The position numbers and the translations under genes are program-made. Under the pieces are notes generated by a model. That model had not been told where the DNA came from. It saw only the letters and a list, made by a program, of their open reading frames with translations, and made no database searches. Shown here in pieces: positions 1 to 49,100 of a DNA stretch of 64,000 nucleotides (positions within the stretch are counted from its first letter, which is position 1; each line of letters begins with the position of its first letter). Origin of the DNA: Ostrinia nubilalis (Eukaryota > Arthropoda > Insecta > Lepidoptera > Crambidae); contig NC_087099.1 in the NCBI RefSeq assembly GCF_963855985.1, positions 14,476,001 through 14,540,000 of the forward strand, in the 5' to 3' direction.

Positions 1-57
1 GATTCCAGTACCTCTGCCGACTGCAGGGCGCTGGAGGAGGCTGTTGGAGGACCAGAA
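1..57 (+). CDS. XYLB: XYLB exon (first in window)
   Basis: Nineteen codons beginning [13 protein letters not shown] and ending GGPE, followed at 58 by the donor GTGAGT. The upstream acceptor is outside the window. It joins in phase 0 to the exon at 1661, giving GGPE then [14 protein letters not shown], which matches the usual family order. Confidence 0.88.
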
Positions 58-3000
58 GTGAGTTAATGCGGGCAATAGTGATCTCTATCATCATAGCAAC
101 AAGGCACAGTATGGTGGGGAAAGGACGCGGAATCAGTGCGGGCAATAGTGACCTATATCGTCATAGCAACACGGCTCAATATAGTGCTTAAACCAGTTCA
201 TCCACACGCAGCTGGCCATAGTAGTGACCAGTTCAGGCAATAGTGACCTGTATCATAGCAACAGACCTATAATTCAAAGCTCAGTGTCAATATGGACAAT
301 AGTGACCTGTATCAGTATAGCAACAGAGCTCAGGATGGCAGGACAAAGACCAGAGTCAGAGTCGAGTGACCAGTTCGGGCAATAGTGACCTGTATCATCA
401 TAGCTACAGGGCTCAGTATGGTGGGGCAGATACCAGAGGTTTTGATCAGTGTGGAGAATAGTGACCTGTATCATCATAGCAACAGAGCTCAGTGTGGTGG
501 TGGGCCAACGGCCAGAGGTGAGTAATCAGTGCGAGCAATATTGACCTGTATCATTATAGCAATAAGGCTCAGTGTGGTGCGCCAAAGACCAGAGGTGAGT
601 AATTAGTGCGAGCAATATTGACCTGTATCATTATAGCTACAGGGCTCAGTATGGTGGGGCAGATACCAGAGGTTTGATCAGTGTGGGAAATAGTGACCTG
701 TATCACCATAGCAACAGGGCTTAGTATGGTGGGCCAAAAACGTGGAGTCCCATGTAGCCACACTGGCTCCAGAATATTAAAGAATAACATACAAAATGCA
801 TCCGAATGGGAAAGACAAAAACATTGTTAATAGAATTTAGCAGGTAGGTAGTACATTTCCACGTTATAATCTAATCTCTAGTTTTATAAGCCTAATAAAA
901 TAATTCTATTAGTATCACAATAATTGTTAACGAGATCAGTACAAACGAGGTGCAATGGAGCATTGCAGGTAATTTCTCGTTTCTAGCTCACATTACTAAT
1001 ACCAGAATCGTTTATTTTTTTAAGTAGGCTAAAGTGCTTTCTCTCGAGTACCGTTTTTTTTTTTGCAGATTGCAGCTCAGTTCCGTGCACATGAATTAAT
1101 AATAACAGAAAATTCTATACGACAAAAACTGAGTTCAATTACTCTTTTTTATAATTCGCTATGTGTTACCTTTAGAATTCGTTCAAGGCTAACAAAAAGT
1201 CGTTAATTTTTTGCAATTAGGCTCGTAAAAAACTTTACACAATACAATAATTTTGAACCCACCAACCGCTTCGGGATATGGTGAGTGAAATAGCGGATCT
1301 CAGGGCGGTAAATTCTTCTATTCTAACCCATGAAATGGTCAAAATAACCAGGTCAACATTACCATCAGTTCACGAGCACACAAATCCGCAAGATTGTCCG
1401 CTCTGCTCAGAATGTGGATCTCAAAAGTGTCTGCGTGCTTCCAGCTTATGCTGGAATAACTAGGTTTTATAACCTCGTCTATTCGGTTTTATGATACTCC
1501 TAGGAACTGGCCAAATAAACCGGGTCTCGCGCATACGAGTGGTCCACGGGCGCTCAGATCCCCAAGATATTCCGCACTCGTCCATGGGCGTATCAAGTCG
1601 CGACGCGGGTCTCGCTGGTGTACCTTACATAATAAAAAAAATACTTTCATTCTTATCCAGGAGCTGGCCAAATTAACGGGGTCTCGCGCATACGAGCGGT
1701 TCACAGGCGCTCAGATCCGCAAGATGTTCCGCACTCGCCCGCGAGCGTATCAAGCCGCGACGCGGATCTCGCTGGTGTCTTCCTTCGCCTGCTCCCTGTT
1801 CCTGGGCCGCATCGCTCCCATCGATTTGTCGGACGGCTCCGGGATGAACCTGCTCGATATACACTCTTTGAAGTGGGATGAGAAGGCTTTGAAGGTAGGT
1901 GTTATTCATTAACTGGTAGTTTAACGCTTTTTGTATTCTTGTATGACTTGAATCCAGAAGTAAAAAGGCAAGTAAACTTGTCATTAGACCTTTGACCCCT
2001 CGCAGGAGACATGCGGTTGCGAGCCACCAACTGCACTAAAACTTTCTACAATATTTATCATATATTTATGATCTAACTTAAGTATCTAATCTCCCGCTTT
2101 TTTCATCCATCCGTTGCTAACTATCTTCTCAGGGTCGCCGGTCCATCAAGCTAGTGCGCATCTTGTCACTACGTTTCCTGAAACTGTCTCATTCATCCCT
2201 TATGCTCCAGTTTGCGTCAGTTACCCATTATCTAGAGAGGATTGGTCCCACTTTTCGTCGACCACTTAAGCTCATATAGCAACCTGGTAAACTCGACACT
2301 TATTTCCAGGCGTGCGGAGACGAGACCCTGGCCCAGAAGCTAGGCGAGCCGATAGCGACTGCTAGCGACCTGGGCGTCATCTCACCCTACTTCGTGGCGC
2401 GCTATGGCTTCCGCGCCGATTGTCGCGTGGTGGCTTTCACTGGAGACAACTGCTCTGCGTTAGCAGGTATACATATCTTTGGACAGTTTACACTGCCATG
2501 TAGCCCCAAAGAAACGGGTATAAACTAAGAGGAAAGCATACGATGCGTTGCGGCGGCGGTGCGACGCCGGAGCAGTGTCGCTGCGTCGTCTTCCATAGAA
2601 ATCTGTGGAGGGCACAGGAGCGGTGCGGCGAAATCTTTGCGGTGCGGCGCTGCAACTCATCGTGTGCTTTGGCTTTTACTTTTTTTTATACAAATATACA
2701 GCACAGGAGGATGGCTCTAATTCATCAGAAGCAAATAGAGGATTTGGTCTAAACATCCCAATACCTAACGGTATATTGCACAGTCTTCCAAAGAATCTGC
2801 TACTGTGCCTTGATTGGACATCAGACTAAAGTATTCCTATAAAACACCGACACTTAGTTACCACTATGTTAATGTATATTGGCAAAGTAAATAAGCATAC
2901 AATCTTAGTAATATACTTCGCAAATATCTAAATAAATATTTATCTGGGAGTTATCTTAGCAGATAACTCAAGAGGGCTAAGGTTTACAAGTCGTCAAAAA

Positions 3001-46100: not shown

Positions 46101-49100
46101 GTGCTGTTATATATACGTTAATTTCCTCACCGGGGCAAGTCAGTGTGCGTGTAGTTGACGAGGTGCACGAGCTTGCGCGCGGTCTCGCGGGACAGCAGCA
46201 CCAGCATCTCCTCAACAGTTTCAGGTCGGGCCTGGTTCTCCGGCTCGGGCTGGCTCAGCGACGAGTACAGCTCTTTGGCCTTCTTCCATGCAAGGGCTGG
46301 GTCGGTTGCCACCTGGTGAATTTATTGGTAGATAAGCAATGGAGACAGACAAAAGACTGCCATTGTTTGAGTCATCGTAAGAATAGGCAAGGAAATATTT
46401 ATTCTCATAAAGTTTTCAAGTTGAACTCGACCAACTTTAAGAACCTCTGTATATGTTTGGTTCTTGTGACTAGATTTTTAAGTGTGAAATAAGTACAGTT
46501 TCTACATAGGTAACTATATGATTTGCCAACATTTGGATCTAGGATTGTTTGTTATCCAACATTTACTTAGATGCAGGTCTAGGAATCAGTGTATAGTGGG
46601 CCACAGTTCCAAATACCCATTTTCATGTTTTCTCTCGCTCTCATCAAATGCCGATTCTTTGCGATAGAACGAGACAACATGACCGGAAATGGGAACTGCA
46701 GTATCTACTACATTTTTCGTTCGTTCGTTTGTTTCAGCCGAAAGACGTCAACTGCTGGACAAAGACCTTCCCCAAGGATTTCCACAAAGACCAGTTCTGC
46801 GCCGCTCGCATCCAGGCACCTCCCGCGACCTTTACCAGATCGTCGGTCCACTTAGTGGAAGGCCTGCCCACGCTACGTCTTCCGGCCCATGGTAGCCACT
46901 CAAGTCACGACAACATTTTTGGCATTAATTAATTTACAGATAGGTGACTTACCAGCTCAGCAACATAGACGAGCACGTGTATCTGTTCCTTGATGGCCTT
47001 GGCCTCGGCCAGCGCCTGGCGCGTGAGCCGGCGCTGCAGCTTCCTGCGCAGACGCGCGCCGTGCTGCACCGCCGCCGCCGCGGCCGCGCGCCCGCCCTCC
47101 GCTTCGCCCTCCGAGCCCTCCGCTCCCGTCACCACAATCGCCACTGGATAAGAACAGAAAAAGTCACTCACCTGATCAGGACAGGACATATGCGTGAACG
47201 ACATGTGCATGTGGATTCGCGCAAAAATGTCTTGGTGGATTCGGATTGGATCACCACTTGGTGGGGCCAGAACAAGCACTCTAATAATGCCGCTGCTAAT
47301 GCATAACATAAGTAGTCAGTAGGTCCTTTACAACTTTTACTTATTACTACTCCCACCCAAAGAATGATCACCACTGTCTAGTTGAGACACTCCCTATTTA
47401 TAGGTAAAAGGGCTGATTGTAGTAAACTGATGTTTGCCCTCCTCCTCGCCCTCCGAGCTCTCCGAGCTCTCCGCGCCAGTTTCCACGATCGCCACTGGGC
47501 CGTAAGAAATCATACAGTAAGGCCCTCTGATATAGTAGTCAGCAGCTGTGATTGACAAATGACAGGTCTAATCGCATGGCAGCTAAGCTTCTACTCGTAT
47601 ACAGGTAGTTGCCAGAACAAGTCGTTTTCTGACTACCGCGACAACTAACAAGTCAATTGGACTTATAAACTGAGTTTTTAGTTGCTGCTCCCGTTTGACA
47701 ATGACCACCAGTCACCATCGGGTGAGGCCAGTACAAGTAAGGCGTGCGCCCGTCACCACGATCGCCACTGGGCAGAACAAATCACATTGATTACGAGGGT
47801 CATGTAATTGCTCCCTCCCACACGTAATGATCACTAGGTACTGATTGGATAAGGCCAGAACAAGTCACTCCCTGAGTACCTCCGCCTCGCCCGTTACCAC
47901 GATCGCCACTGGGCAGAAGAAATCACTTACTTAGCAGCTGGGATTGACAAGGATTACTCCCGCCCGACAATGATCACTACTGGATGAGGCCAGAACAAGA
48001 CTCCTGCGATAACTAAGGAGGAAGCAGCTAACATACAAGGGCCCTCAACGCCCGTCACTATGATCACCACTGGGCCAGAACAAGTCACACAGTAAGGCCC
48101 GCTGTATAATGAGCAGTTACTTAGCAGCTGGGATTGACAAGGATTACTCCCGCCCGACAATGATCACTACTGGTTGAGGTCAGAACAAGTCACTCCTGCG
48201 ACAACTAAGGAGGAAGCAGCTGACATTTGCAAGGGTCTTACTTAATCAGTTGATGCTTGCTTGCAAACTGAGATTCTAGATACTGTTCGCGTTTGACAAT
48301 GACCACCAGTCACCATCGAGTGAGGCCAATACAAGTAAGGCGCACGCCGTGCTGCACCGCCGCCGACTCGCCTTCCGGGCCCTCCGGACCAGTTACCACG
48401 ATCGCCACTGGGGTAGACCAAATCACACACTTAGGCTTCCAATGCACTAGGCAGCCAGGCTACGGCAGCCAGTCGAACATATGACGGTGAATGGGAGAGA
48501 CCAGAACAAGTCACTACCTGACTACCGCGACATTTGCAAGGATCTTAAACAGCTGCTGCTTACTTGCAAATTAAATTTCAAGTCTGCTGCTCCCGCTTGA
48601 CGATGATCACCAGTAACCACTGGTGAAGCCAGTGAGCCAACACCACGATCACTACTGGGTCAGAATAAGTATCTACTTATTCAAGTTTTTTTTTGCTTAA
48701 TAAAACCACAGTTAATAAGTATACATCTGTATAGTTACATATAAAACGAACGCTATTTGTTAGGTAAAAGGTAAACCTAAAGTACTCGTAGGTGTTTTTA
48801 ATACAAAATGCATACTGTTATTCAATAAGATATCGGTGACCCGTGAAGATAAACGGATAGGTGGATTATCGTCAACAAAATAATTATAATTATGTTGACT
48901 ATACAGGGTGTTTGGCGCATCGTGTGCCAAAATGATTTGGCGGATAGAATGGGTCATTTCCTATATTTTCAGCCCCCATAACACGTTCCATGTCAGGCGG
49001 CTACTTTTATATTACGTTTTTTAGTAATTTCACCAAAATACCCAAATCGCATCATTTAATTTCGATTTAAAAAAAAACTACTAAGCGTAACCTCAAAGTA

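Follow-up and report, generated by a model that had tools for sequence, protein, structure and literature searches.

In a 64,000-nucleotide stretch of the genome of the European corn borer, Ostrinia nubilalis (contig NC_087099.1, positions 14,476,001 to 14,540,000; hereafter the window), which was analysed as one haplotype, pieces of exons are locally duplicated together with their splice sites in three neighbouring and unrelated genes, XYLB, SF3A1 and Lsd-1. All nine local duplication families of the window that are not transposon-like contain a splice junction or lie within 50 nt of one and, in the array that follows exon 4 of XYLB, copies that are formally intronic differ mainly at synonymous positions. 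The explanation that best accounts for these observations as a whole, and to which we assign a probability of about one half, is that the families are exon-edge minisatellites, known as mirages, which would have originated in GC-rich DNA, been tolerated as copies of single exon edges, been remodelled by unequal exchange and, in XYLB, come to form a pool of copies exchanged between chromosomes.

Local duplications at exon edges

Self-BLAST of the window, with a distance limit of 3 kb, called 14 local duplication families. Five of these (D at 7628-7933, 13319-15157, 39385-39826, 40077-40467 and J at 54944-55226) are transposon-like and were excluded, 100% of their sequence being found elsewhere or inverted in the window. 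For each of the other nine families this share is 0-13% within the window, and they therefore do not behave as transposable elements with dispersed or inverted copies. None of the five dropped families is within 50 nt of a junction; if they are kept, 7 of 14 families contain a junction and 9 of 14 lie no more than 50 nt from one. Modelling was limited to the three genes, and the splice junctions (48, or 49 in later tests) were taken from these alone.

In seven of the nine families a junction lies inside the duplicated DNA, namely the donors at 57, 4838, 12009, 19374 and 25333 and the acceptors at 1660 and 47143. A repeat unit spanning an exon-intron boundary, as in a mirage, is thus present in these seven. 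It is absent from array H, which is purely intronic and ends 29 nt from the donor at 45577, and not detectable in family M, which belongs to XYLB exon 6558-6731; both of these lie within 50 nt of a junction without containing one. An earlier, sequence-only reading of this DNA had reported exon-edge copies in the three genes, and both the repeats and their coordinates were verified. The same is true for its copy numbers, which range across families from 2 to 18 (17 copies plus the real edge at SF3A1 exon 25334-25465), for the spread of ages from near-identical (about 97% identity at exon 19375) to pseudogenised (about 70-74%, with stops and gaps, at exons 1661 and 6558), and for an intron-only array, which is array H at 44433-45548. 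Its tally of six donor and two acceptor edges has to be corrected to five and two, although both kinds of edge are indeed copied, and among the exons that it listed the copy at XYLB 6558 is an exon piece without a detectable donor.

Constraint on intronic copies of XYLB exon 4

The array at about 4654-6319 on the plus strand (array C), delimited by Tandem Repeats Finder (TRF) and self-comparison, consists of seven complete units of about 218 bp and a last copy that lacks a donor. Each unit comprises the 3' part of exon 4, a GTGAGT donor and 45-50 nt of intron. Exon 4 itself (4578-4838) is the working copy and copy 1 of the array, and is joined to exon 6558-6731 in the predicted O. furnacalis protein P0039. 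Six of the seven complete copies are intronic, and copies 1 to 7 all keep the GTGAGT donor. Of the 31 coding positions that vary among them, 25 are synonymous and 6 non-synonymous (expected synonymous share 0.26, P = 3e-10), the latter being a strict count that includes the silent third positions of three residue-changing codons. The means were 0.293 for pS, 0.015 for pN and 0.196 for the intron part, with an observed omega of 0.05. The synonymous excess was strongest in the true frame and weaker in the antisense frame that shares the same third positions (17/31, P = 9e-4); the other four frames showed none. In the intron-only array H, used as a control, no synonymous excess was found in any of the six frames.

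All four combinations of variants occur in 74 of 120 informative site pairs, which indicates that the copies of this array have recombined. Copy 8 (6191-6319, plus strand) is truncated, lacks a donor and has decayed; 5 non-synonymous changes separate it from copy 1, as compared to one for each of copies 2 to 7, and it cannot serve as an exon because it stops short of the donor. Concerted evolution from which the border copy is excluded, another property of mirages, is therefore seen here. The residue changes and the one frameshift among copies 1 to 7 are confined to codons 2-9, where the unit has its 5' end; for this clustering, with the codon limit set post hoc, Fisher's test gave P = 0.003 when the frameshift was counted and 0.011 when it was not. 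An H/N difference at codon 9 concerns a residue that, as judged by eye, also varies between moths.

One reading of this pattern, which we offer tentatively and as possible rather than probable, is that the intronic copies, each holding the 3' half of exon 4, serve by turns as the working exon through interchromosomal exchange, so that purifying selection would act on DNA that is intronic in any one chromosome, that the synonymous diversity of half an exon would be raised several-fold, and that, given the exon-edge arrays in three unrelated genes of the window and in receptor genes, such a situation may be widespread in the genome.

Simulations of the XYLB array

Several ways of maintaining such an array were simulated in populations that were small (150-1000). 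Rotation of copies by unequal crossover alone was rejected: four longer runs gave an omega of 0.47-0.60, and 12 others, which were shorter or smaller and not at equilibrium, gave 0.21-0.94. In three of the four longer runs, non-synonymous changes were commonest in the first fifth of the unit. Homogenisation within one chromosome was also rejected, as intrachromosomal conversion gave an omega of 0.44-0.78 in all four runs (Nc 1-160). In four runs with interchromosomal conversion, omega was 0.61, 0.67, 0.44 and 0.11 with Nc rising from 1 to 160, and at an Nc of 160 the divergence between copies reached 11.5 times the single-copy theta. Frequent interchromosomal exchange is the only model tried that approached the observed omega. 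The view that the copies are fossils shed by a working exon was rejected by argument alone: the neutral branch of a shed copy cannot be shorter than the stretch under selection between it and a younger copy, and non-synonymous changes should then occur at no less than about half the frequency of synonymous ones.

Anatomy of the other families

On the plus strand, the first XYLB exon (1-57) is partial at the window edge and ends at the donor at 57; its residues in the in-frame model agree with O. furnacalis P0039. Array A (21-749), detected by TRF and self-BLAST, contains this junction and is built from units of about 77 bp derived from the exon end, which by alignment carry 8 to about 37 exon nucleotides plus the donor; TRF reports 5.7 copies at 297-738. 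Array B (1310-1778) holds, upstream of exon 1661-1894, two decayed copies of its acceptor and 5' part, with 69-70% identity, a ratio of synonymous to non-synonymous change near neutral and one stop. Family M (6653-6970, E = 4.5e-6) is a decayed copy of a piece of exon 6558-6731 with 2 stops and near-neutral change, in which the donor of that exon is not detectably included.

The three SF3A1 families lie on the minus strand. Family E (11378-12116) is one copy, 92% identical, of the 3' part of exon 12010-12165 with its donor. Array F (18555-19509) has five copies, one of them real, of at least the last 117 nt of exon 19375-19566, and nested within it is a 23-bp unit that starts with the last three exon bases and is repeated 2-3 times. 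Array G (20158-25391) comprises 17 copies in addition to the real 3' edge of exon 25334-25465 and is interrupted by transposon-like DNA; the exon end is followed by GTAC in 9 of the 17 copies, by GTTAC in one, and by no GT in seven. In Lsd-1, also on the minus strand, the intron-only array H (44433-45548) is accompanied by array I (47083-48668), with about seven copies, including the real one, of the acceptor and 5' part of exon 46953-47143.

The judgement of codon changes covers families B, C, E, F, G and M, as A and I have too little coding sequence or were uncounted. Synonymous versus non-synonymous change is near neutral in B, E, G and M, and the copies of F, about 97% identical, are too young for a judgement at the codon level. 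The predicted Ostrinia proteins P0121 and P0241 use the real exon edges, and P0039 uses those at 57, 1660 and 4838.

Edge excess and GC content

All edge tests refer to the single window in which the pattern was first noticed. In the founding-unit null, which comes closer than whole footprints to the way in which arrays grow, one hand-chosen unit per family was placed in non-transposon gene DNA. The expectation was 1.28 edge units of nine with array DNA kept in the space (P = 2.7e-5), 1.70 with the extra copies removed (P = 1.8e-4), and 1.76 when only units of the intronic or single-edge class, i.e. those passing a survival filter, were considered (P = 2.4e-4). For whole footprints, a circular shift of the 48 junctions gave P-values of 0.019 for a junction inside and 0.0011 for one at no more than 50 nt, and random placement in gene spans gave 0.088 and 0.005, respectively. 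The GC content of the exons is 63.4% and that of the allowed intron DNA 36.5%. With GC-matched founding units, the expectation rose to 4.02 edge units of nine (P = 0.037), and with GC matching combined with the survival filter to 6.01, compared to 7 observed (P = 0.37). The excess over chance that the sequence-only reading had suggested thus stands against random units, is weaker after GC matching, and is gone once the survival filter is added. Most of it is explained without the process amplifying exon-intron junctions that had been proposed, although two units nearly or entirely free of exon sequence do lie close to junctions. R-loop-linked slippage, which had been named as a possible cause, finds no support in the coding-strand GC skew of the nine units, which ranges from -0.39 to +0.42; given its occurrence with both signs, an R-loop or strand-asymmetric origin was rejected.

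A possible course of events

The units contain anything from no exon sequence (H) to about 180 nt of it (C), and there is therefore no fixed exon piece that is being copied. We suggest that small tandem duplications would start in GC-rich DNA where a short match links exon and intron sequence. Such a match was seen in one array: in array F, AAGAAGAT is common to the exon and to the intron beyond the array and could have seeded a tandem duplication. Judging from the anatomy of the arrays and from the predicted proteins, copies of a single edge would then be harmless within the intron, probably because the partner splice site is absent, so that splicing can ignore them and keep the real exon; duplications of whole exons or of coding sequence only would be lost. 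Unequal exchange would subsequently expand, reshuffle and erode the arrays. For the XYLB exon-4 array, the substitution pattern and the simulations suggest that interchromosomal exchange is frequent and that any donor-bearing copy may become the working exon, in which case the copies would be one pool kept under selection for protein sequence.

Weighing of the explanations

Several observations weigh against this course of events. With respect to the origin of the arrays, the GC match is partly circular, because it is the exon sequence that makes the units GC-rich, and without the survival filter the seven of nine still exceed the GC expectation. Arrays A (21-749) and H (44433-45548) are almost exon-free and both lie less than 30 nt from a junction, a position occupied by only 7.5% (242/3210) and 9.0% (60/667), respectively, of GC-matched, nearly exon-free windows, a comparison of two cases made post hoc. 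In array F, the copy junctions are AAGAACAT or AAGGACAT, which are inexact with respect to AAGAAGAT. With respect to XYLB, none of the simulations reached the observed omega, the interchromosomal run at an Nc of 160 lacked the 5' surplus of non-synonymous changes seen in the data, and no single model gave both the low omega and this surplus. Copies 5 to 7 carry the frameshift or H2P in codon 2, and the notion of a selected pool rests on one array, because families B, E, G and M are near neutral and F is too young. Lastly, the use of the real sites is indicated by predicted proteins, of which P0039 ends by read-through of the donor at 6731.

The points on GC content and on arrays A and H would be expected if a process tied to splice junctions, such as co-transcriptional nicking, R-loops or template switching at exon edges, made the arrays and GC content were a bystander. 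Such a process would also fit with nine of nine families touching or neighbouring a junction, and with the low expectation of edge units without GC matching (1.76) or with GC matching alone (4.0). However, the GC-matched expectation of 6.0 of nine among intronic or single-edge units, the variable exon share of the units and the two signs of the GC skew argue against it, and we consider it rather doubtful. An artefact, in which the assembler made or inflated the arrays, is highly improbable: many pairs of copies within A, B, C, G, H and I are roughly 10-30% divergent, a degree of difference that no assembler would produce, and, according to the available part of an earlier report, the same architecture was sequenced from clones of bacterial artificial chromosomes (BACs) in the same species (PMC3081303).

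The constraint on the XYLB array could be due to the copies themselves being used, with alternative 3' halves of exon 4 spliced or translated in some transcripts. The synonymous excess in the true frame and the intact donors of copies 1 to 7 are compatible with this view. However, no convincing acceptor was found upstream of any of the six intronic copies (in-frame AGs precede five of them, with a pyrimidine share of 0.33-0.43), reading on past the donors of copies 1 to 6 leads to a stop, and the predicted O. furnacalis protein uses copy 1 only. Use of the copies is therefore quite improbable, and mutually exclusive exons, each copy of which would have its own acceptor and donor, were rejected as a candidate. 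The main rival for this array is that the synonymous haplotypes stem from a second, diverged working XYLB gene or from introgressed alleles, from which the array was recently built. In line with this, six of the seven sites private to copy 2 among copies 1 to 7 are synonymous (one of the six being common to copy 8), two haplotypes are split by six differences within 15 nt (codons 32-36) that leave the residues unchanged, and exchange between paralogues has been proposed for the OR5/8 receptor repeats in the portions available of that account (PMC3081303). Yet only one named Ostrinia XYLB cluster is found among the 120 of 3506 proteins listed, where a close paralogue could share a 90% cluster or rank lower, and the introns of copies 1 and 2 are almost identical, with a single difference in 49 nt, in contrast to their codons, in which 39% of the synonymous sites differ. 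We thus regard a second source as unlikely.

Gene models and further features of the window

The in-frame models joined for the three genes are all open in frame: XYLB on the plus strand with eight exons, the first being cut by the window edge, SF3A1 on the minus strand with ten exons, and Lsd-1 on the minus strand with nine exons and an alternative last exon at 43011-43118. Pfam names two of the window proteins, and Lsd-1 is a Perilipin, i.e. lipid storage droplets surface-binding protein 1. The O. nubilalis protein P0241 is 100% identical to the Lsd-1 model over the 82% of the model that aligns. As read by eye, its O. furnacalis counterpart P0242 differs from it at two residues, and the O. 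furnacalis proteins P0039 (XYLB) and P0121 (SF3A1) differ from the respective models at one and three residues. Lsd-1 has two possible last exons, 41174-41425 and 43011-43118, the second of which is used by P0241. In a predicted Lsd-1 isoform of Loxostege sticticalis (P0247), additional sequence immediately precedes the exon that has its acceptor arrayed in the window; by eye, this sequence resembles an exonised retrotransposon fragment. SF3A1 exon 29995-30159 (minus strand) has an apparent GC donor at 29995 (AAAAG/GCAAGT) that keeps the frame, and O. furnacalis P0121 has S in place of G at this junction.

Between SF3A1 and Lsd-1, at 31700-40900, the sequence reads as a long coding region like that of a non-LTR (long terminal repeat) retrotransposon, broken by two more repeat elements with long inverted ends. 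Short elements at 7600-8280, 21950-22140 and 54590-55270 share, as read by eye, the common end ACAGGGTGGAAACGATAAGTGATCTC, and the internal duplications of about 150 bp in the first and last of these are two of the families dropped from the counts. Regions 43001-43499 and 62001-64000 were screened by program rather than by eye.

Comparison with known systems

Nine families among unrelated genes in 64 kb make exon-edge arrays a candidate general feature of this moth genome. Such arrays would provide raw material for new introns and alternative exons and, in a species that is a crop pest, they make it harder to annotate genes, map reads and design markers. The XYLB array is nominally intronic DNA with constraint at the protein level, and would confound methods that take such constraint as proof of a used exon.

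A limited search of the open-access literature found no report of exon-edge arrays in XYLB, SF3A1 or Lsd-1. Exon-edge arrays as such are already known, from amphioxus and from O. nubilalis receptors; codon-level constraint on the copies was not found described in the available parts of these sources. In amphioxus, tandem repeats spanning exon-intron boundaries have been named 'mirage' minisatellites and, as far as the accessible text goes, were described in Adh3, globins, TnC and PGBD5 (PMC3087553, PMC3902484). Compared to these, the present arrays are from a moth, nine families share one 64-kb window, copies number up to 18, and one array is intron-only; the codon-level constraint seen here is unmentioned in the portions of the amphioxus accounts that were available. 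Intron gain by tandem genomic duplication (the AGGT model) and human internal tandem repeats at exon-intron boundaries are related systems that, judging from the available excerpts, share with the arrays described here a tandem duplication copying splice signals (PMC3443670, PMC2812944). Unlike in AGGT intron gain, no new intron position was found in the three gene models, and the copies stay within existing introns.

The closest parallel comes from O. nubilalis itself. According to the accessible part of the report on the odorant receptor (OR) genes OnubOR5a/b/c and OR8 (PMC3081303), these contain 181-bp repeats in which 143 nt from exon 7 are followed by the first 38 bp of intron 7. There are 2 to 5 complete copies, and the last copy is truncated; the repeats were sequenced from BACs, and the authors interpret them as evidence of unequal crossover. 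In architecture, which alone was compared, they are like the XYLB array: the end of an exon, the start of an intron and a truncated last copy. Together with the location of nine of nine families at or near an exon edge, the finding of this architecture in Z-linked receptor genes lends partial support to the suggestion of the sequence-only reading that a regional or genome-wide process is at work. The OR5/8 genes are close relatives in a tandem array on the Z chromosome, whereas XYLB, SF3A1 and Lsd-1 are mutually unrelated. Moreover, the receptor copies are described, in the text available, as identical or nearly identical to the exon, whereas the XYLB copies have diverged, but synonymously.

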